Source of the DNA: Gammaproteobacteria bacterium
Lineage (GTDB): Bacteria; Pseudomonadota; Gammaproteobacteria; Ga0077554; Ga007554
DNA: 38,905 nucleotides
NCBI GenBank assembly: GCA_021731145.1
Contig: JAKFXX010000044.1
Coordinates: 1-38,905, forward strand
Direction of reading: 5' to 3'
Shown here: positions 1-35,747 of the stretch, in pieces
Layout: each line of letters begins with the position of its first letter
How positions within the stretch are numbered: the first letter of the stretch is position 1
Translations under genes and position numbers: made by a program
The notes under the pieces: model-generated
Told to the model about the DNA's origin: nothing
Seen by the model: only the letters and a program-made list of their open reading frames with translations
The model's database searches: none

Positions 1-3000
1 TGGCCCAGGCCTGGTCGATGAGGGCGGGCGTGCCGTTCTGGCTGAGGGTCAGGCGCTGGCCGACGGGGTTGCCGTTCGGGTCGAAGGTGTAGTCGCGCAG
101 GTTGCCGAGGGGGTCGGTGGCCTGGATAATGCGGTCGACGGCGTCGTACCGGTACTGGGTGGGGTGCCAGGCGGGGTCGATGCCCTGGGTGAGGCGGCCC
201 AGGGGGTCGTAGGCGAGCGTGGCGCTGTCAGTTTCGGTGGGCGCGATGAGGCCGTCGCCGTTCTTGTCGCCGCGGCGGGTGACGGTGGTGGCGTTGAGGC
301 CTTGGGCGTCGTAGCCGACTTCGAGGGTGGGGCCGGCCTGATTGGTGAAGTCGCGCACGCGCTTGCTACTGGTGCGGTTGCCGTAGGCGTCGTAGGTGTT
401 GATCGTCCAGGCCATCAGATCGGCGGGGGCGGGGGTGTAGGCGGCCGGGTCGAGACTGGCGCCCAGGCCCGTCTTGAGCCTGATCTCCTGCACCGGGTTG
501 CCCTGGGCGTCGTATTTCAGGAGCGTGTAATTGCCGCGCGCGTCTTTCACCTTGCCGGGCTGGTTGAAACCGGTGAAGTAGCTGAATTCGACGGTGGCGC
601 CGGAGGGATTCGTGATGCGGGTGACGTTGCCCTGGGTGTCGTAGGCATACTGGGTCTGATAGCCCTGCGGGCCGGTTTTGGTGAGGCGGTTGTAGGGGTT
701 GCTGGGGTCGTAGCTGTAGCGGCGCTCGGCGCCATTTTCTTCGATGATCCTGACGGGGTTGCCGTAGGGGTCGAAGAAGAAGCGCCGTTCATGGCCGCGC
801 GGGTTGGTCTGCACGGTCTCGCGGCGGAAGTCGTTGTAGGTGAAGGTGGTGGTCTCGCCCAGCGTGGTGGCGTGGCGGAAGACCTTGCCGTTGCTGTAGT
901 ACTCGAAGTTCATGCCGTTGCCGCGCGGCAGGGTGTAGCTCTTCATGGCGTGGTTGAGGTTGATGCCGTCGCCGGCGCCGTAGTAGCTGTAGCTGACGGG
1001 GGGCTGGCTGCCGGCCGCGGCGAGGGGGTTTTTGTAGGTGCTGAGGTTGCCGCTGGCGTCGTACTGGTACTGGTGGGCGCGGCCGGTCCAGTCGCTGATC
1101 TGGCTGATGCGGCTGCCTGCGTAGCTGAAGGTGAGGCTGCGGCCCAGGGCGTCGCTGACGCTGCTCAAGAGGCTGCCTGCGTAGCTGAGGGCGAGGGCGT
1201 TGCCGGTGCGGTCGGCGATGCCGAGCAGTTTGGCCTTCTGCCCCACGGTGCCGGCCACGGACTCGAAGGTGTAGGTGAGGCCGTTCTTCTCGCGCAGGGT
1301 GTAGCGGCCATCGCCCTGGCGGACGGTCTGGAAGAAAAAGCCTTGCGGTGCGGTGAAGGCGCTGCCCGCCCCTACCCCGCCCGCCGTGCCCGCCACGCGG
1401 ATGAAGCGCTGCGCGCCGCTGCCGTCGGTCCAGGTGACGCTGGAGGTGAGGCCGTCGCTGTCGGCGGGGTCGGTGATGCCATTGGCGTTGTCATCGCTGA
1501 AGGTGAAGGCGTGATTGAAGCTGTGCGTCCAGCCGTAGCCCAGCGGCCCGTCCTGTCCGGCGCGGCTGTTGTAGCTGCGCTCGAAGACGAAGGGCAGGCC
1601 GCCGCGGCCCTTGATGCTGAGGTCGCGCTCGGTGTGGTAGAGGTTGCCGGTGACCATGTGCACCGGGTCGCCGGCATAGGTGTTGTAGGCCGAATTCCCC
1701 AGCCCCACCCCGGAGGTGAGCGTCGAAAACGACCCCAACGGCACCTGGGACAGTGCATAGCCACTGTCGAGCGTGGGATTGAACAGCGAGGGCTGGACGG
1801 GGCCGGTGGTGAAACCGCCGGCGTACTGGTTGATGGCGTAGCCGGCACGTGCCTGGTTGTCCACGGCGAGGGTATTCTTTTCCGACACGAACACGGCGCC
1901 CTTCCAGTCCTGGTACTGGATCAGGCTGCGCGGGATGGTGAGGGTATAACCGGCGTCGATGTAGGCGGTCTTGATGGACGTGACATGGGCGGCGGAATAG
2001 TTGAGGGCGGCATTGGCGTTGCTGGTGAGCTTGGGGCTTTCCGCCGCCCAGTTGGCGGAGGTCAGGGTCAGCACTTCGATGCCGGTCTCGCGGGCATACT
2101 GGAGGCCGCGCACGGTGCTCACCGCATCCAGGCGCGCATTCTCCTGCCAGATATAGGCCTCGTAGGCCGAGGCGCTGTAACCGGACAGCAGGAAGGTTTT
2201 CCACACCGGATTGCCGGTGGTGAGGTCCACATTGCGCGACAGGCCGCCGGGCACGTCGACGAGCAGCCCCTGGCGGTACACCGCATACGGCAGGTCGAAC
2301 AGGTATTGCACCTTCATCTGCGTGGAGGTGAGGCCGATGTGGTTGCCGCTTTGGCCGGAGCCGCCGTCCAGCATGCCGATCTGCTGGCCGGCACCGGTGA
2401 GATAGCGCATGTATTTCAGGCCAACAAGGTGCAGGAATTCGCCTTCGATGCCGTCGGGATTGCTGTTGGGGTCGGCGGTGGTTTTGACGGTGTTGAGCAG
2501 CCCGGCGGCGCGCTCGGCCAGCAGGCGGTTGGAGGCCTGGAAGGCATAGCCCTGCAGGGCGTGGTGGTTGGCGGCGCCGATGTTTTTATAGGTCACCGTG
2601 TTGACGGAAGGCGCGGCCAGCTCAGGCAGGGTGATGGCCAGGGTCAGCTGGTTGTCCTTGGTGCACAGGCCGACGCCGGTGGCGCCTACCATCCTGTCAA
2701 CCCCCTCGACCTTGATCACCGGCACCACGTTCGCCGTGCACGGCAGGGCGGCGGCTATGTCGGGATTGGCCTTCCAGGCGTCCAGCACGGTCTGGTCGGA
2801 GGCGGTGGCGCCCTTGAAGGACAGGGTTATGCGGTTCAGGGCCACTTGCGGCAAAGGCAGGGTAAGCGCGGGGGCCAGCGCCGCGCCCGCGCCGTTATTC
2901 ACGGTGAGAGTGAATTGATAGCGGTGCGCGTCGGGCAGCGCTGCGGCCTCGGCGGAGGTGGAGCCCGGCCAGGCGGTGAAGGAGGTGACGGTATAGGGCA

Positions 3001-4486
3001 GCGTGGCGGGCAGAATGTCGACCACGCGCGGCACGGCCTTGCCGGCATAGCCCACATCCTGCAGGGTGTTGTTGGCGTAATTGGGCGCGACGCCCTTGAT
3101 GGCGGCCTCCACCTGCTGGGCGTATTTCTCCTGCGGCAGTTGGTTGCTGCGCGTGGCGAGGTAGCCGGCATAGTCGAAACTGACGCTGGTGGCGATGCCG
3201 GCCTGGTAGGTCTTGTCCTTGAAGCTGGGGTCGAGCGGTATCCAGCGGAAGCCGGTCTTGTCCACCCCGGTGCCGCGGTAATTGCCATAGGGGACGCAGG
3301 CCTCGACCCACACGTGCGCCAGCGCCACACCGGTCTTCTGGCTGGCGGCGTTGGTCACCGTACCCGCCGCCGGGTTCATGCCCTGGGCGAGGATGCTGGC
3401 AGCGGCGGCATAGCTCTTTGCCCCCAGCCAGCGCGGCCCGCGTCCGTTCTGGGCCAGCGGCGAGGCATCGTTGATCTGGATGCTGCCTTTGACATAACGC
3501 GCCGGGATGTTGGAGGCGCGCAGCAGGGCGATCAGCAGGGATGCCTGGTCGGTGGGGCCGCCCGCCTTGCTGTAGAGCGTGCCCAGCGCCCCTTTCAGGG
3601 AGCCGTAGTAGGGCTCGAGGGCGATCTCGTTGGCGACGTACTGGTAGATGCGCACCGGCGAGTAGCCGAGCTTTTCGGCCAGCGCCTGAATCTCGGGCGT
3701 GATCTGCACCTCCAGGGTCGGCGCCAGATCCGCTGCGGCGTAGCTGCAACTGCTCGCCTCGCCGGGGATGGGTGACGGGCCGGCAGCCAGCAGAATGTTG
3801 CCCAGAAAGGCATACTGGTTGGAGCCGGGGCCGTCCTTGTAGGACAGGTACTCCGGCACGCGATCCGCGGCGGGCTGCGGCTGGGGCGCGGCGGGGATGC
3901 CGGTGCGGAAGGTCGGCAGCGGTTCGCTGCCCAGCGACCCCTCGCGGTCTTTTACTTGTATATGCAGGGTATTCAGTTCGGCCTGGGCCTGACTCAGCGC
4001 GCCACTGCGTTCATGGGACGTGCGGCTGTCCTGCACGCCCGCCAGGGCGCGATCGAGACGGTCAAAACGGCTTTCCACCTGTTTGAGCAGCGCATCCCAG
4101 GCCGCGGCCTGGCCGCTCAGGCCCAGCTCCGCCAGGCGGATGCGGGTGGCGGCGAAGCGCGCCCGCGCCTCGCCGCGCAATACGCCCACCTCTTGCCGCT
4201 TGGCGGCGAATTGCGCGCGCAAGGTGGCGGGCAAGCCCGCCTGAGCCAGACCCTGGGGCGCGCCCTCTTCCGCCTCGGCCTGCCGCAGCAGCGCCCCCGC
4301 CTCGTCCAGATGGCGGCCCAATGCCTCGGGCAAGGGATCGGCCTGACCCGCCTGGAGATCGTGCAGCACCCGGCCCGCCACCTCCGCCGGCAGCGGCGCG
4401 GGATCGACATGCGCCGCGAACGCCGGCCCGCCCAGGGTGGCCGCCAGCAACAGCGGTAAAAGTCTATTCAGGCAATGGCGCAGCAT
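1..4486 (-). CDS. RHS/YD-repeat secreted protein with inactive-looking transglutaminase domain (C-terminus outside window)
   Basis: About 1495 residues are visible in one uninterrupted frame that runs off the left edge. The start ATG at 4486 has a GGGGAG ribosome site about 6 nt upstream and overlaps the end of the preceding gene by 23 nt, which suggests coupled translation. Residues 1-25 are a signal peptide (LLPLLLAATLGGPAFA). Residues 30-200 are Ala/Arg/Gln-rich and probably helical. A transglutaminase-like domain lies at about 285-425: it keeps the HVW motif (His391) and the PLDPSF motif (Asp419), but Pro311 sits where the catalytic Cys is expected. A DUF6531-type RHS entry motif (DPVHMVTGN) lies near residue 938, followed from about 1100 by YD repeats such as YDASGN, YDPLGR and FDPNGNPVG. 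Asp-rich loops (DKNGDG near 1405) may bind calcium. RHS proteins form shells around C-terminal toxins or act in surface adhesion; the variable tip is not visible, so a toxin role is undetermined. Family call is firm; function is inferred. Confidence 0.88.
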   Translation of the reverse strand, partial: MLRHCLNRLLPLLLAATLGGPAFAAHVDPAPLPAEVAGRVLHDLQAGQADPLPEALGRHLDEAGALLRQAEAEEGAPQGLAQAGLPATLRAQFAAKRQEVGVLRGEARARFAATRIRLAELGLSGQAAAWDALLKQVESRFDRLDRALAGVQDSRTSHERSGALSQAQAELNTLHIQVKDREGSLGSEPLPTFRTGIPAAPQPQPAADRVPEYLSYKDGPGSNQYAFLGNILLAAGPSPIPGEASSCSYAAADLAPTLEVQITPEIQALAEKLGYSPVRIYQYVANEIALEPYYGSLKGALGTLYSKAGGPTDQASLLIALLRASNIPARYVKGSIQINDASPLAQNGRGPRWLGAKSYAAAASILAQGMNPAAGTVTNAASQKTGVALAHVWVEACVPYGNYRGTGVDKTGFRWIPLDPSFKDKTYQAGIATSVSFDYAGYLATRSNQLPQEKYAQQVEAAIKGVAPNYANNTLQDVGYAGKAVPRVVDILPATLPYTVTSFTAWPGSTSAEAAALPDAHRYQFTLTVNNGAGAALAPALTLPLPQVALNRITLSFKGATASDQTVLDAWKANPDIAAALPCTANVVPVIKVEGVDRMVGATGVGLCTKDNQLTLAITLPELAAPSVNTVTYKNIGAANHHALQGYAFQASNRLLAERAAGLLNTVKTTADPNSNPDGIEGEFLHLVGLKYMRYLTGAGQQIGMLDGGSGQSGNHIGLTSTQMKVQYLFDLPYAVYRQGLLVDVPGGLSRNVDLTTGNPVWKTFLLSGYSASAYEAYIWQENARLDAVSTVRGLQYARETGIEVLTLTSANWAAESPKLTSNANAALNYSAAHVTSIKTAYIDAGYTLTIPRSLIQYQDWKGAVFVSEKNTLAVDNQARAGYAINQYAGGFTTGPVQPSLFNPTLDSGYALSQVPLGSFSTLTSGVGLGNSAYNTYAGDPVHMVTGNLYHTERDLSIKGRGGLPFVFERSYNSRAGQDGPLGYGWTHSFNHAFTFSDDNANGITDPADSDGLTSSVTWTDGSGAQRFIRVAGTAGGVGAGSAFTAPQGFFFQTVRQGDGRYTLREKNGLTYTFESVAGTVGQKAKLLGIADRTGNALALSYAGSLLSSVSDALGRSLTFSYAGSRISQISDWTGRAHQYQYDASGNLSTYKNPLAAAGSQPPVSYSYYGAGDGINLNHAMKSYTLPRGNGMNFEYYSNGKVFRHATTLGETTTFTYNDFRRETVQTNPRGHERRFFFDPYGNPVRIIEENGAERRYSYDPSNPYNRLTKTGPQGYQTQYAYDTQGNVTRITNPSGATVEFSYFTGFNQPGKVKDARGNYTLLKYDAQGNPVQEIRLKTGLGASLDPAAYTPAPADLMAWTINTYDAYGNRTSSKRVRDFTNQAGPTLEVGYDAQGLNATTVTRRGDKNGDGLIAPTETDSATLAYDPLGRLTQGIDPAWHPTQYRYDAVDRIIQATDPLGNLRDYTFDPNGNPVGQRLTLSQNGTPALIDQAWA

Positions 4487-11464: not shown

Positions 11465-11672
11465 TGAAGATAGTACCCGCCGTTCAGTGAGTGCGCATGA
11501 TACCTGATTCGCAGGCCGTTGAAAAACAACCTGTGTGGGGGAAGGGAGCGCTGAAAAGGCAACAGGCGGCCTTTTACGGCATCCTTTTAGCGCCGCCCAT
11601 TGCGCTCACGGTATACTATCTGGGTAAACCAAAGAGCCATACCAAGAACGGATGCCCTGATAATTAGGGGCG

Positions 11673-11697
11673 ACAGATTACAATGAACGACTGCTTA
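11673..11697 (+). repeat. Dispersed 25-nt repeat, copy 1 (upstream of tamA)
   Basis: This stretch matches 26241-26265 with one mismatch (ACAGATTACAATGAACGAC, then T or G, then GCTTA). It ends just before the tamA ATG at 11700. It encodes a five-codon frame MNDCL whose TAA overlaps that ATG. The second copy is in the nuoJ-nuoK spacer, in the same orientation on the plus strand. Confidence 0.7.
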
Positions 11698-11699
11698 TA

Positions 11700-13460
11700 A
11701 TGCTGAAACGCATATTGATTATTCTGCTGATGATTTTCATCAGCTATGCAAGCGTAGTCCGTGCGGCGGAAACCATAGAGGTTAAAATCGACGGTGTAGA
11801 GGGCGCCGTGCTTGAGAATGTACGCAAATTCCTGGGTATCGAGCAGCAGAAAAGCGACCCGGAGCTTTTCGAGGCACGCATACGGCGCCTGCACCGCAAT
11901 GCCACTGCCGAAATCAAGCAGGCGCTGGAGCCCTTTGGCTATTATGATCCGCAGGTCCGTTCCGAGCTTGTGCAGCAGACTGGCGGCTGGCTGGCAACTT
12001 ATCACATCGACCCTGGCACGCCAGTGCATGTGGAGAAAATTGATATTCAATTACTGGGGGAGGGTACGAAAGACGAAGCGTTCCAGAAGCTCATCGCCGA
12101 CTTCCCCCTGCACAAGGGCGACGTTCTCGAACATGCCAAATATGAGGCGGGCAAACGCGCCCTCCAGGCCCTCGCCGCCGAGCGCGGCTATCTGAACGCA
12201 CAACTTTCAAGACACGAGGTCAACGTTCAGCCCGATCAACACTCGGCTACTGTGACCCTTCATTTTGACACCGGACCGCGTTACAGCTTCGGCAAGGTAA
12301 GCTTTATTCAGCCAAGCGATCACGAAAAAACTTATTTAGATCCAAAATTCCTCGCGCGCTTTGTCCCTTTTGAACAAGGTGAACCATTTTCAACAAGCCG
12401 CCTGTTTACCCTGCAAAACATACTCAGTGACAGCGACTACTTCAACAGCGTGGATGCCAAGATACGCCGCGACCTTATCGAGAACCGTGAAATCCCCGTG
12501 GAGGTCATGCTGGAACCCCGCAACAAACACCGTTATACCTCCGGCCTTGGTTATGGCACGGACACCGGGATGCGCGGCAGTCTGGCCTGGGAAAACCGCC
12601 ACATCAACGACCAGGGGCATCGCCTTAGAACTGAACTCAGGCTCTCTGAAATCAAAAACAGTTTCATCGCCCGCTATCGCATCCCCACCCGAAACCCACG
12701 CACCGACCGCATCGAACTCACTGCCGGCTGGCTGGAGAACAATCCTCAAACCAGCCGGAGCGAGATCGCCCTGATCGGCGCCAGCCACACGCTGCTCAGG
12801 GGCAGCGGCTGGCTTGAAACGGTATACGTCAATTATCAGGCCGAAGCCTACACTGTCGGTAGCGATAGCGGCCAGAGCAAATTATTGTTGCCGGGCATCA
12901 GTTGGGCGCGCGTCGATGCCGACAGCCGTATTTACACGCGGGACGGCACCCGGCTGTTGATCGATATCAGGGGAACTCATCCGGCATTGGGTTCGGATAC
13001 CCAGTTCTTGCAAATGCGGCTGCAAGGCAAGCTGATTCGCCCGCTCGGAGAAAATGGCCGTGTCATCCTGCGCGGTGATGCAGGTATCAGCCGCGTCGGT
13101 GATTTTGCCAAGCTGCCCGCCTCGCTACGCTTCTTCAGCGGCGGTGACCAAAGCGTGCGCGGTTACGGCTACAACACCCTGGGGCCACGGGATGCGGCCA
13201 GCAATCGGGTTATCGGTGGCGAACAACTGTTGGTTGGCAGTACCGAATATGAATATTCGTGGACAGACAAATGGAGCAGCGCTGCCTTTTTCGATATCGG
13301 AAACGCCCTGGATAATTGGGCAGACAAACTCAAACAAGGTGCGGGCGTGGGTGTGCGCTGGAAAACCCCTATTGGCCTGATCCGCTTTGATCTGGCCTGG
13401 GCGGTGAGCGAACCAAACAACCCCATGAAATTTCATCTTGTGATCGGCCCCGACCTATGA
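11700..13460 (+). CDS. tamA: TamA, outer-membrane assembly factor of the Omp85 family
   Basis: 586 residues. Residues 1-23 form a signal peptide (cleavage near VVRAA). Residues 25-270 form the POTRA domains (VKIDGVEGAVLENVRKFL; ALEPFGYYDPQV; LAAERGYLNAQL, all typical of TamA). Residues about 275-586 form the 16-strand barrel, with SGGDQSVRGYGY as the Omp85 lid motif (VRGY) and a C-terminal strand FHLVIGPDL. TamA works with TamB in inserting autotransporters and other proteins or in lipid transport across the periplasm. No clear Shine-Dalgarno precedes the ATG; a five-codon frame ends on it. tamB starts in its last codons (ATGA overlap). Confidence 0.93.
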   Translation: MLKRILIILLMIFISYASVVRAAETIEVKIDGVEGAVLENVRKFLGIEQQKSDPELFEARIRRLHRNATAEIKQALEPFGYYDPQVRSELVQQTGGWLATYHIDPGTPVHVEKIDIQLLGEGTKDEAFQKLIADFPLHKGDVLEHAKYEAGKRALQALAAERGYLNAQLSRHEVNVQPDQHSATVTLHFDTGPRYSFGKVSFIQPSDHEKTYLDPKFLARFVPFEQGEPFSTSRLFTLQNILSDSDYFNSVDAKIRRDLIENREIPVEVMLEPRNKHRYTSGLGYGTDTGMRGSLAWENRHINDQGHRLRTELRLSEIKNSFIARYRIPTRNPRTDRIELTAGWLENNPQTSRSEIALIGASHTLLRGSGWLETVYVNYQAEAYTVGSDSGQSKLLLPGISWARVDADSRIYTRDGTRLLIDIRGTHPALGSDTQFLQMRLQGKLIRPLGENGRVILRGDAGISRVGDFAKLPASLRFFSGGDQSVRGYGYNTLGPRDAASNRVIGGEQLLVGSTEYEYSWTDKWSSAAFFDIGNALDNWADKLKQGAGVGVRWKTPIGLIRFDLAWAVSEPNNPMKFHLVIGPDL

Positions 13461-23824: not shown

Positions 23825-25774
23825 TTAATACACAAAGAAGGTCAGCAACACCACAAGACCAATAATCATGGCGAAGGCATAATGATACATATAGCCCGAT
23901 TGGGCGCGGCGTACAACACCCGAGATCCAGCCTATACCATTTGCCGTGCCATTCACCATCACACCGTCGATCAGCTTGATGTCGCCAAAGCGCCAGAAGA
24001 GCCGCCCCACGCTACGCCCACCACCCGCGAATACAGCATCGTTGAAATCATCGAAGCCATACTTTTTATCAAGGATGTTGTATACCCAGGAGAAACGCTC
24101 CTTGATGCTCGCTGCGATGTCGGGACGCTTCAGATACAGGAACCAGGCGACGGCGACGCCGGCAGCGGACAGCCAAACCGCAGGGGCCATCAGACCATGC
24201 ACGATAAACTCAACCCATCCGTGGTACTCACCACGCAGTACACCCAGCACATCATGCTCAGGCAAGACATAGATGGCGCGACCGAAGAAATCGCCAAACT
24301 GGAGAGGGCCGATTGCAATAGCGCCAATCACCACCGAAGGGATAGCCAGCAGGATCAATGGCACGGTAACCACCGCCGGGGATTCGTGCAAGTGGCTGCG
24401 GGTGTGCTCGTCCATACGTTCCTTGCCGTGGAATACCAGGAAGAACATGCGGAAGGTATACAGTGCCGTGATAAACACGCCCAACAGCACGGCGAAATAG
24501 GCAAAGTCGGCACCCGGTACGGTCGAAATCTGAACAGCCTCAATAATGCTGTCCTTGGAAAAGAACCCGGAAAATCCGGGGAATCCGATCAAGGCCAGCG
24601 CGCCGATTAGCGATGTCCAATAAGTAATCGGCATGTATTTTTTCAGGCCGCCCATTTTTGTAATATCCTGCTCGTGATGCATGGCGATAATCACCGAGCC
24701 TGCCGCCAGGAACAGCAACGCCTTGAAGAAGGCATGGGTCATCAGATGAAAAATACCCGTCGCATAGGCCGATGCACCCAGCGCCACGGTCATATAACCC
24801 AGTTGCGAAAGCGTCGAATACGCCACAACGCGCTTGATGTCGTTCTGCACAAGGCCGAGGAAGCCCATAAACAACGCCGTGATCGCGCCGATGACGATCA
24901 CCACACTCAACGCAGTTTGCGACAATTCAAACAACGGCGACATGCGCGCCACCATGAAAATACCGGCGGTCACCATGGTAGCGGCGTGGATGAGGGCCGA
25001 AATCGGCGTCGGGCCTTCCATTGAATCCGGCAGCCACACATGCAACGGCACCTGCGCCGATTTGCCCATGGCGCCGATGAACAGCAGAATGCAGATCATT
25101 GTTATCACGGACCATTGCTGGTTCATGGCAACTTCGGCAGTGACATTCGCCATCGATGGGGCTGCGCTGAAAACATCCGCATAGTCCAGCGTATTAAAGT
25201 ACATCAGCACCGCCGCGATGCCGAGCAGGAAACCCAGGTCACCGACACGGTTGACCAAAAATGCCTTCAGGTTGGCATAGATCGCCGACTCTTTTTGATA
25301 CCAGAAACCGATCAGCAGATAAGACACCAGACCCACCGCTTCCCAGCCGAAAAACAACTGCATAAAGTTGTTGGCCATTACCAACATCAGCATGGAGAAA
25401 GTAAACAGCGAAATATAGCTGAAAAAACGCTGGTATCCGGGATCATCGCGCATGTAGCCAATGGTGTAGATATGCACCATCAGCGACACAAAGGTCACCA
25501 CCACCATCATCAATGCGGTGAGCTGGTCGATCAGGAAACCGACTTCGAATTTGATCCCGTCGCTGACCAACCAGGTATAGACCGCGCCATTATAGGGATC
25601 AGCACCATCCAGGATGATCTGTTTGAAGACCACCAGCGATAATCCAAAGGATATGGCAACCCCGATTATGGTCACCCAATGCGCCCCGGCGCGGCCTATG
25701 GCCTTGCCGAACAGGCCAGCGATAATCGCGCCGAACAGGGGCGCCAACACAATGGCGAGCGAAATATTCTGCAT
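23825..25774 (-). CDS. nuoL: NADH-quinone oxidoreductase subunit L
   Basis: 649 residues, the largest and most distal antiporter-like subunit of complex I, with the long lateral helix at the C-terminus. Motifs include DQLTALMMVVVTFVSLMVH, FFGWEAVGLVSYLLIGFW (essential Glu), GKSAQVPLHVWLPDSMEGPTP, HAATMVTAGIFM and DIKRVVAYSTLSQLGYM. Length matches the family. nuoK ends 12 nt upstream and AGGATAGGGA serves as ribosome site. Confidence 0.97.
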   Translation of the reverse strand: MQNISLAIVLAPLFGAIIAGLFGKAIGRAGAHWVTIIGVAISFGLSLVVFKQIILDGADPYNGAVYTWLVSDGIKFEVGFLIDQLTALMMVVVTFVSLMVHIYTIGYMRDDPGYQRFFSYISLFTFSMLMLVMANNFMQLFFGWEAVGLVSYLLIGFWYQKESAIYANLKAFLVNRVGDLGFLLGIAAVLMYFNTLDYADVFSAAPSMANVTAEVAMNQQWSVITMICILLFIGAMGKSAQVPLHVWLPDSMEGPTPISALIHAATMVTAGIFMVARMSPLFELSQTALSVVIVIGAITALFMGFLGLVQNDIKRVVAYSTLSQLGYMTVALGASAYATGIFHLMTHAFFKALLFLAAGSVIIAMHHEQDITKMGGLKKYMPITYWTSLIGALALIGFPGFSGFFSKDSIIEAVQISTVPGADFAYFAVLLGVFITALYTFRMFFLVFHGKERMDEHTRSHLHESPAVVTVPLILLAIPSVVIGAIAIGPLQFGDFFGRAIYVLPEHDVLGVLRGEYHGWVEFIVHGLMAPAVWLSAAGVAVAWFLYLKRPDIAASIKERFSWVYNILDKKYGFDDFNDAVFAGGGRSVGRLFWRFGDIKLIDGVMVNGTANGIGWISGVVRRAQSGYMYHYAFAMIIGLVVLLTFFVY

Positions 25775-25786
25775 GATTCGGCGTCC

Positions 25787-26092
25787 CTATCCTTTTAAGG
25801 TATCAAGATCTTCGACATTAATGGTGCGCTTGTTGCGGAACAGCACGACCAGAATGGCCAAGCCGATGGCCGCCTCGGCGGCAGCAACCGTAAGTATGAA
25901 AAAGACAAAGACCTGCCCGGCGCTATCGCCAAGATAGTGTGAAAAAGCGATGAAATTCATATTCACCGCCAGCAACATGAGCTCAATCGCCATGAGCAGA
26001 ATGATAACGTTCTTGCGATTGAGGAATATCCCGGCCAGGCTGACGCAGAACAACACAGCCCCCAGAATCAGAAAATCCGATAACGCGATCAT
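25787..26092 (-). CDS. nuoK: NADH-quinone oxidoreductase subunit K
   Basis: 101 residues with three membrane helices. The conserved buried Glu occurs in [19 protein letters not shown] and a second in [13 protein letters not shown]; both take part in proton transfer between the membrane subunits. It is separated from nuoJ by 187 nt, much longer than other gaps in this operon, because of a structured insertion. Confidence 0.96.
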
Positions 26093-26140
26093 TGCGTCCC
26101 CACCCTTTGTAAACTTTTATTGTAAATCCAAGAGCCTGCT

Positions 26141-26216
26141 TTAGGGGCCGTTAAGGAATAACCAGTGCTTTTCTGGTTAAGCCTCATTGTCACCTTACGG
26201 TGATTACGGCCCCTTA
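26141..26216. repeat. Palindromic structured element between nuoJ and nuoK
   Basis: Outer arms AGGGGCCGT (26143-26151) and ACGGCCCCT (26206-26214) pair perfectly and enclose two further hairpins: TAACCAG with CTGGTTA (26159-26165 and 26173-26179) and TCACC with GGTGA (26190-26194 and 26199-26203). The whole folds as a three-way junction. It lies inside the operon, where other intergenic gaps are 5-47 nt. It looks like a small non-coding insertion (MITE-like) or an RNA processing element. Confidence 0.65.
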
Positions 26217-26240
26217 TGCCGTTCCCACCATTTTAAATGT

Positions 26241-26265
26241 ACAGATTACAATGAACGACGGCTTA
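26241..26265 (+). repeat. Dispersed 25-nt repeat, copy 2 (nuoJ-nuoK spacer)
   Basis: It matches 11673-11697 with one mismatch. Here it lies 15 nt from the end of nuoJ and is antisense to the nuo transcript. Confidence 0.7.
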
Positions 26266-26279
26266 CCCAGCAAAGCAGA

Positions 26280-26888
26280 TCAACTTTCTTTTTTTTCCGT
26301 TTCCATTTTGACGATGCGCACGCGATCATTACGGCGCGTCGCAACCTGCCATCCCGCATTCTGGTACTTGGTGTGAGGCCGTCTGCGCAATGTCAGGGCA
26401 ATGGCGGCGACAATCGCCACCAGCAAAATCGCGGCGGCGATTTCAAACGGATATACATACACCGTATAAAGTATCCGCCCCAATTCCTTGGTATTGCTGT
26501 AATCCGCCATGTGTCTGGTGGGTTCGGCGAAATGCTCCAGACCAAAATACTTGGGGCCTACCGCAATCGTCATTTCCGCCACTACGACCAGCGCGACAAT
26601 GATCCCCACCGGAAGGTATCTGATGAAGCCCTCGCGCAATACTGTGATATTGATATCCAGCATCATGACCACGAACAGGAACAACACCATCACCGCGCCA
26701 ACATATACCAGCACCAGGGTAATGGCGAGGAACTCCGCTTCGAGCAGCATCCACAGCGCGGCACTGGTGAAGAAGGTCAGCACCAGAAAAAGCACGGCAT
26801 GTACCGGGTTGCGCACGGTAATCACCGCTACCGACGCAGCCACCAAAATTGCCGCAAAAGCGTAAAAAATTATCTGTTCGATGCTCAT
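26280..26888 (-). CDS. nuoJ: NADH-quinone oxidoreductase subunit J
   Basis: 202 residues with five membrane helices in the first 170 residues (NPVHAVLFLVLTFF, LEAEFLAITLVLVYVGAVMVLFLFVVMMLDI) and a charged tail ending METEKKES. The helix with VYVGAVMVLFLFV forms the pi-bulge region that takes part in coupling. It is membrane-embedded next to NuoK and NuoH. nuoI ends 33 nt upstream. Confidence 0.95.
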   Translation of the reverse strand: MSIEQIIFYAFAAILVAASVAVITVRNPVHAVLFLVLTFFTSAALWMLLEAEFLAITLVLVYVGAVMVLFLFVVMMLDINITVLREGFIRYLPVGIIVALVVVAEMTIAVGPKYFGLEHFAEPTRHMADYSNTKELGRILYTVYVYPFEIAAAILLVAIVAAIALTLRRRPHTKYQNAGWQVATRRNDRVRIVKMETEKKES

Positions 26889-26921
26889 AATATTGTGTGT
26901 AGCGCCTGCCTGGCTTGATAA

Positions 26922-35662: not shown

Positions 35663-35747
35663 TGGTACCGATGGCCGGACTCGAACCGGCACAGCTTGCG
35701 CCACTACCACCTCAAGGTAGCGTGTCTACCAATTCCACCACATCGGC
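35663..35747 (-). tRNA. leuU: tRNA-Leu (anticodon GAG)
   Basis: 85 nt including an encoded CCA end. The acceptor GCCGATG pairs with CATCGGT (with a first G-U pair). The D-arm reads TGGTGGAATTGGTAGACAC, the anticodon stem-loop CTACC-TTGAGGT-GGTAG gives anticodon GAG, there is a long class-II variable arm, and the T-arm is GCCGG-TTCGAGT-CCGGC. Close to E. coli leuU in the acceptor and anticodon parts. It follows secG by about 40 nt and is probably co-transcribed with it. Confidence 0.96.

Follow-up and report, generated by a model that had tools for sequence, protein, structure and literature searches.

A dispersed palindromic element with a nested 19-nt hairpin unit in the nuoJ-nuoK spacer of a gammaproteobacterium

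Palindrome-associated elements derived from IS200/IS605 carry hairpins near both ends and use a fixed target beside the left end, which resembles the last bases of the element; the empty site holds one copy of this target. Small palindromic repeats and MITEs are well known in general. Among repetitive extragenic palindromes (REPs), the GTAG and CGTC types form super-families (Di Nocera 2013, PMC3733652). REPs are mostly located near 3' ends, where the neighboring ORFs are unidirectional or convergent; those of the GTAG type often provide a stop codon, and in A. variabilis, T. roseum and H. neapolitanus some REPs are reported to sit within longer palindromes (PMC3733652). The Neisserial element comes mainly in two sizes, 107 and 155 bp (PMC2229807). 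The hairpin elements of mitochondrial genomes, LIMP (PMC4524435) and sponge RHE (PMC2800124), are small palindromes that spread and in some cases are located within other repeats. These four sources are cited here and below for selected passages.

The locus compared here lies in the complex I (nuo) operon of a gammaproteobacterium. Positions 26141-26265 of the analyzed stretch are a copy of a dispersed non-coding element and not an operon-specific device. Very probably, the insert arose through recent copying of a small non-autonomous mobile repeat, is tolerated between nuoJ and nuoK, and carries a separately mobile, nested hairpin unit of 19/20 nt.

The nuoJ-nuoK spacer and the dispersed element

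The window, a DNA stretch of 38,905 nt, is contig C28 of genome G000 (2,893,550 bases, 47 contigs, 99.99% complete). Eight of its proteins were profiled, namely NuoK, NuoJ, NuoL, NuoI, NuoG, TamA, TamB, and the L3 glutamine methyltransferase; the TamA and TamB matches both fall under the curated cutoff. Only nuoI, J, K, L, and G are identified by family, and further nuo genes are named from position. The genes nuoJ (26280..26888, minus strand; NF005164, 268.5 bits, cutoff 154) and nuoK (25787..26092, minus strand; NF004321, 179.4 bits, cutoff 91) are separated by a spacer at 26093-26279, whose length by ORF coordinates is exactly the 187 nt given in the original prediction. The neighboring nuoI-nuoJ and nuoK-nuoL spacers measure 33 and 12 nt. 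The remaining nuo genes overlap or lie less than 50 nt apart by ORF coordinates, as had been claimed for most of them, with the exception of nuoM-nuoN (~123 nt, the nuoN start being uncertain). Elsewhere, a 32-nt repeat occurs seven times at window positions 181-1064; read as its reverse complement it resembles, we presume, RHS/YD repeats. Because of this resemblance, the plus-strand ORF at 164-3775 is presumably the wrong strand of an RHS-type gene.

The predicted fold of the spacer consists of a left hairpin and a long stem enclosing two hairpins, in agreement with the three-hairpin junction that had been proposed. It reaches −53.8 kcal/mol on the plus strand (z −3.25; 1/200 shuffles equally good) and −61.7 kcal/mol on the minus strand, which is the mRNA sense (z −3.12; 0/200), and is thus better than shuffles on both. 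A 25-nt sequence said to be shared with another site was also recovered, at 26241-26265 and 11673-11697 (96% identical). The original prediction took the entire spacer as the feature; the gap is real, but the element proper is narrower (26141-26265, minus strand).

When the spacer is used as a query against its own genome, 48 places match. Thirty-nine of these were retrieved with flanks; the other nine comprise the window copy and partial matches that fall within or next to those copies. Thirty-seven of the retrieved places (L009-L045) are element copies, while L046 and L047 hold the sub-unit only. Together with two copies in the window, the genome has 39 recognized copies, so that the lack of similar elements elsewhere, named at the outset as a refutation, does not describe this genome. 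A script that allowed 4 changes at the left end and 2 at the right recognized both ends in 34/39 copies and in L069. The five copies failing this test are L019, L035, L036, L039, and the short window copy, the ends of which were read by eye. Typical ends are TAAGCC...CCCCTAA, with the left TAA present in 32/35 copies and the right TAA in 33/35. A purine occurs two bases ahead of the left TAA in 33/35, and the right TAA is followed by A or T in 31/35 and never by G. Copy lengths are 54-56 nt (six copies), 93-96 (two), 106-107 (eight), 125-126 (five), 135 (one), 145-146 (ten), and 165 (two). The window copy at 26141..26265 represents the 125-nt form and is closest to L009 (123/125 identical) and L010 (121/125), at 97-98%; L013 matches L014 at all 145 nt. 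Such near-identity of copies with different flanks argues for recent copying.

The second window copy is an internally deleted remnant of 34 nt that keeps both ends (11664..11697, minus strand), just upstream of the tamA ATG at 11700. The remnant ends two bases before this first ATG of the tamA ORF and occupies the usual place of a ribosome-binding site, which makes the true tamA start or leader doubtful.

The 145-nt form matches four of 144 genomes: G000, G001, G003, and, over just 23 nt, G043. In G001 and G003, the full-length copies observed have the 107-nt form, and one copy has the same flanks in G001 (L049) and in the record of Gammaproteobacteria bacterium Ga0074134 (L069). No match to the element was found in the plasmid collection and viral contigs. 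At L057 of G001 (about 1480-1530), the left part of the element is directly followed by a hairpin and a T run (AAGGGGCTTGTTTGAAAACAAGCCCCTTTTT), as though a terminator had taken over the place of the right palindrome.

The hairpin unit and its nesting

The left hairpin of the window copy (GCCGT...ACGGC; 26218..26262, minus strand) appears in the consensus fold of nine 107-nt copies. The right palindrome AGGGGCCGTAA...TTAACGGCCCCT (26143..26214, minus strand) folds as a junction enclosing two hairpins: an inner one, GGCTTAACCAG...CTGGTTATTCC (26155..26183, minus strand), and a nested 19-nt unit, TCACCGTAAGGTGACAATG (26185..26203, minus strand), which sits at CCGTAA^AGG of the palindrome and is absent from the aligned 107-nt copies. 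The size forms differ accordingly in exact steps. The 107-nt form comprises the left hairpin and one long palindrome in the consensus fold; the 125-nt form has in addition exactly the 19 nt of this unit; and the 145-nt form adds exactly 20 nt more, CATTGCGCCCTTCACGGGTG, within the 19-nt hairpin. Copy L022 has another 20-mer at a different position, and L027 and L028 have two additions each. Every addition fits the one-strand pattern NNNCCGTRAAGGN'N'N'CAATG, in which a 5-bp stem closes a GTRAA loop, shortened by one base in 19-mers, and is followed by the tail CAATG. The three-hairpin junction is an element with a second element inside.

The unit forms a family of its own. With up to one mismatch, CCGTRAAGGNNNCAATG occurs 49 times forward and 60 times reverse in G000 (109 matches, including units within element copies), compared with 0 and 1 for the reversed pattern. 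Exact matches in 369 genomes of the class number 74 in G000, 27 in G003, 14 in G001, four in G325, and one each in 17 others, while the reversed-pattern control gives one exact match in each of 13 genomes. With one mismatch allowed, there are 31 matches in G001, 17 in G002, 52 in G003, and nine in G325; other members of the family (G004-G007) have 2-7, as against 1-2 for the control. Judged by these matches, many copies of the unit are seen in this genus only. Some matches (e.g., L100, L137, and L138) may be chance or coding, as their flanks resemble other sequences by eye. In G325, which belongs to another family, TACCCGTAAAGGGCACAATG or a one-base variant is found at several places (L165, L182, and L183). 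The three distinct contexts share flanks and are not nested, and they were treated as a separate repeat rather than as the same family; they may represent a separate repeat that shares the hairpin by chance or a distant relative.

The search pattern fixes loop and tail but not the three outer positions of each arm. Across 60 distinct contexts, these read TCA/TGA (13), CAC/GCG (11), TGC/GCA (10), TCC/GGA (7), CCA/TGG (6), or otherwise (13), and 154/180 free arm positions are paired, whereas 10,000 shuffles give 84 on average and 113 at most. The covariation score for 21 distinct unit sequences is 0.316 versus 0.135 when shuffled (0/500), and does not exceed 0.076 with a slid partner. Two of the five covariation measures are not above shuffles (both-side pair changes, 305/500; further pair types, 378/500). 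If the tail is left free, CAATG still follows 36/38 perfect hairpins; if the loop is left free, GTRAA is found in 36/43 stems with the tail, and the other seven are one base off. These last two tests are not independent, as their loci were mostly chosen by the pattern. The sequences thus point to a unit whose stem varies while its pairing is kept and its loop and tail are conserved. For the entire element, nine 107-nt copies show compensatory changes in 0/32 predicted pairs, a weak test as the copies vary little, and selection on its RNA fold is not supported by covariation of this form.

By size and copy number, the 20-nt unit resembles a REP (a 20-40 bp palindrome in many copies). The tags differ: among the 60 contexts, the 6 nt on the 5' side of the stem contain GTAG in none and CGTC in two, and their complements lie within 6 nt 3' of the tail in 0/60. 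Assignment to the GTAG/CGTC-tagged REPs was rejected, since the unit has its own tag, CAATG, and those tags are lacking at the stem foot.

Exact excision of a unit restores an outer unit in 22/63 cases, whereas same-length cuts shifted by 1 to 10 bases (14 cuts) do so in only 1-6/63. Sixteen of the 22 nested units are in host orientation, 12 of these at NNNCCGTRA^AGGNNNCAATG. The other six are inverted; four of them, each of the CAC/GCG type, are placed between AGG and the 3' arm. Repeated excision with one mismatch allowed resolves 35 single, 21 double, five triple, and two fourfold cases; both fourfold nests (L129 and L136) are free of mismatches. In two of the 28 multi-unit cases (doubles at L028), the units are side by side rather than nested. 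Nesting is also present in congeners, with four doubles among 10 units examined in G003 and one triple among 10 in G001. Units are located within the loops of GTAGGGTGCG-type palindromes as well (L133, L098, L105, and L113), and hence nest in the element, in GTAG-type palindromes, and in their own kind, up to four deep. Another dispersed repeat, whose flanks resemble GTAGCGAGC...CCTGCCCTTGGGG, contains units too (L135 and L080 in G000, L199 in G003). L199 and L135 were considered as one orthologous unit site and rejected, as the near flanks alone align and belong to that other repeat. No two strains were found to differ in the presence of a unit at the same site.

The nested hairpins could in principle have been produced by DNA polymerase slippage or template switching in palindromes, with no discrete mobile unit involved. 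The 54-nt form of the element would fit a deletion between ACGGC repeats, and mitochondrial LIMP palindromes are thought to grow by such events (PMC4524435). However, slippage should copy the host's own stem, and the inserts are exact units of 19/20 nt, often with stems other than the host's and in both orientations; units are also found alone at many places. We therefore regard slippage as an unlikely source of the nests. In searches of open-licence papers, no description of self-nesting hairpin units was found, nor one of the CAATG tag, of exact insertion into a same-family loop, or of four-deep nesting. We rate the spacer itself as ordinary and regard the nested unit as the novel part.

Empty sites, placement, and function

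The NuoJ and NuoK proteins of three congeners (G001, G002, and G003) are 97-100% identical to those of the window. Their nuoJ-nuoK spacers measure 65, 76, and 66 nt, compared with 187 nt here, and the element is missing from all three; the check on relatives that accompanied the original prediction thus finds the site empty. The 14 nt from the nuoJ stop to the element (26266..26279, minus strand) and the 48 nt of nuoK leader downstream of it, with the AGGGTGGGG ribosome-binding region (26093..26140, minus strand), are largely conserved in the alignment of filled and empty sites, and AGGGTGGGGACGCAATG is identical in all four genomes. In place of TAA, the congeners have TAGT, TTGA, or a longer variant at the empty nuo site, and the exact target there is therefore one that we infer.

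L014, a copy placed on the stop codon of the gene upstream of it, provides a second empty site. The corresponding position in G001-G003 has a single TAA and no element, in contrast to the TAA at each end in G000; a further 12 bases are missing from G002. This arrangement is consistent with either a three-base duplication or an element that has its own terminal TAA. L027 was left out as a further empty site, as only its right flank was matched among the strong matches. At one orthologous site, the 107-nt form is present in G003 and the 54-nt form, with its apparent deletion, in G000. The presence of the element in several species suggests that the family is older than these species, and the two forms at one site suggest that copies decay in place. 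With dozens of copies elsewhere and empty sites at two loci, these comparisons give good support to the tolerated mobile element of the original prediction, namely a lineage-specific insertion of a non-autonomous mobile repeat. Its tolerance would be explained by the intact reading frames and nuoK leader and by the lack of a terminator in the insert.

No ORF called by a simple ORF caller spans any of the 37 copies. The one span that was flagged has a weak score and concerns L047, which is not among the element copies; some called ORFs enter an end of the element (e.g., L011 and L031). Neighboring genes are tandem in the same direction as the element for 16 copies, tandem in the opposite direction for 10, convergent for nine, and divergent for two (n = 37; a hand count on the same kind of calls, which are weak at L009, L013, and L019). 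The upstream gene's stop codon is where 8/37 copies begin, whereas 20/504 eligible TAA sites in the same loci are stop codons; this comparison is based on a similar simple ORF caller and a rough null. The placement is like that reported for REPs (PMC3733652).

The original prediction also allowed that the element now serves as an mRNA processing or stability site that adjusts the nuoA-J to nuoK-N ratio. An RNase III cut in the long hairpin, or a block to 3' exonucleases, would then shift the ratio of upstream to downstream subunits. The strong fold of the sense strand is in keeping with such a role; in addition, hairpins of the Neisserial MITE are proposed RNase III sites (PMC2229807), and REPs, mostly downstream of genes, are in many cases thought to be transcribed (PMC3733652). 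Nevertheless, the element is missing from the same spacer in the three congeners. Its copies lie in both orientations between tandem genes with no clear bias (16 vs. 10), a finding that speaks against their being there for a strand-specific RNA role. The lack of compensatory pairs noted above points the same way, weakly. Furthermore, no terminator-like site (GC-rich hairpin and T run; shuffles average 1.2) and no promoter-like site was found in 25700-26900. A processing or stability function appears improbable on these grounds.

Extra sequence is recurrent in this part of the operon within the family. The nuoI-nuoJ spacer of G003 is 177 nt long, versus 33 nt in G000-G002, and holds a different long palindrome; nuoJ-nuoK spacers in G004-G007 are 107-305 nt, that of G005 containing a pair of GTAGGGTGCG palindromes. 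The spacer with the G003 palindrome (L062) has a fold of about −79 kcal/mol. This recurrence adds to the reasons for reading the nuoJ-nuoK spacer as tolerated rather than selected. A complex I operon can evidently carry recent repeat insertions, at nuoJ-nuoK here and with another palindrome at nuoI-nuoJ in a sister species, with frames and leader intact, and a regulatory reading of the spacer would therefore call for RNA data.

A folded non-coding RNA within an essential operon might also suggest a conserved regulatory RNA (attenuator, riboswitch, or leader), but this is highly improbable, as the element is missing at the site in congeners and Rfam 15 has no family in the spacer at gathering score, its sole window match being a tRNA (35666-35747). 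The loci of four other copies give five weak Rfam matches, all far under gathering scores and outside the element, save an RNAI match (E 0.68) that touches the edge of the L024 copy. An assembly artefact of repeats, conceivable in a draft genome of 47 contigs, deserves next to no credence: the copy is internal to a contig, its flanks on either side are native and agree with those of three congeners, and the fetched copies have their own flanks.

Mobilization and comparison with known systems

The repeat family with its ends and empty sites, the exact size steps, the nesting, and the compensated stems suggest a history for the tolerated mobile repeat. The basic element of ~106 nt, mobilized in trans, would enter TAA sites in non-coding DNA, not rarely upon the stop codon of a gene, and leave or bring a second TAA at its other end. 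From the comparisons of copies and congeners, we infer that the basic element is old (three species) and that the 19-nt unit would have been inserted at CCGTAA^AGG in the G000 lineage. The 125-nt and 145-nt composites would then have been amplified, and one 125-nt copy would have landed between nuoJ and nuoK. The unit would be mobilized separately, by a putative enzyme, with a preference for hairpin loops with CCGTRA^AGG, both in its own kind and in other palindromes. In the 107-nt element, this motif lies in a stem, and sequence may therefore matter as much as the loop.

For the unit itself, we tentatively raise the possibility, which falls somewhat short of an even chance, that the 20-nt hairpin is a mobile DNA unit that targets hairpin loops, with a preference for its own kind (NNNCCGTRA^AGGNNNCAATG), and moves probably via a single-stranded or cruciform intermediate. 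The enzyme would read stem shape, GTRAA loop, and CAATG tail, not stem sequence. If mobile, the unit would, to our knowledge, rank among the smallest mobile DNA units. Self-nesting would then spare genes, with earlier copies acting as landing pads. Nested units with conserved loop and tail and compensated stems form a natural archive of the features that a hairpin-reading transposition enzyme would recognize, and dozens of pairs of host and insert can be read in one genus.

No autonomous partner was found by a search with the right-end motif or a scan of Y1 loci. With one mismatch, the motif TAAGGGGCCGTNA has 28 forward and 33 reverse matches in the genome versus 11 and 10 for the control; of the matches listed, six fall outside element copies, which is below the 21 control matches and at chance level. 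None of the ten Y1_Tnp loci in the genome contains a unit with up to one mismatch, and a unit-RAYT association is accordingly not seen at these loci; four of them (two overlapping) carry GTAGG-type palindromes. The element is short (106-165 nt), non-coding, multi-copy, and intergenic, as MITEs are. Its ends, TAAG-CCGT and TTAGGGGCCGT, are only loosely alike, and terminal inverted repeats in common with an autonomous transposon were not found. The MITE label is uncertain because these ends are not clean inverted repeats. TAA stands at both element ends and once at the empty L014 site, and the right TAA may be either a target-site duplication or part of the element.

Compared with IS200/IS605-derived elements, the present element shares the end hairpins, the fixed left target, and the single target copy when empty, but no TnpA gene with the element's ends is found among the ten Y1 loci. 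Correia/NEMIS and RUP, compared by description, are likewise about 100-155 nt, hairpin-forming, mostly intergenic, and non-autonomous, and the Neisserial one likewise comes in more than one size (PMC2229807). Unlike those elements as described there, its ends TAAGCC/CCCCTAA have no clear inverted repeats, no transposase with related ends was found, and good matches are confined to one genus in the searched genomes (PMC2229807). The unit, like the GTAG/CGTC REPs, is a short palindrome in many copies, mostly intergenic and near gene 3' ends (PMC3733652). It differs from the REPs of that account in its tag (CAATG, or CATTG on the other strand) and 5-bp stem, in nesting within itself to four deep and mostly at one loop position, and, with regard to GTAG REPs, in that no transposase gene flanked by the unit was found (PMC3733652). 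Nested insertion of exact units is not described in the cited passages on LIMP (PMC4524435) and RHE (PMC2800124), and LIMP stems are pentanucleotide repeats. The unit nevertheless resembles both in being small, in spreading, and in sitting within other repeats (PMC4524435, PMC2800124).
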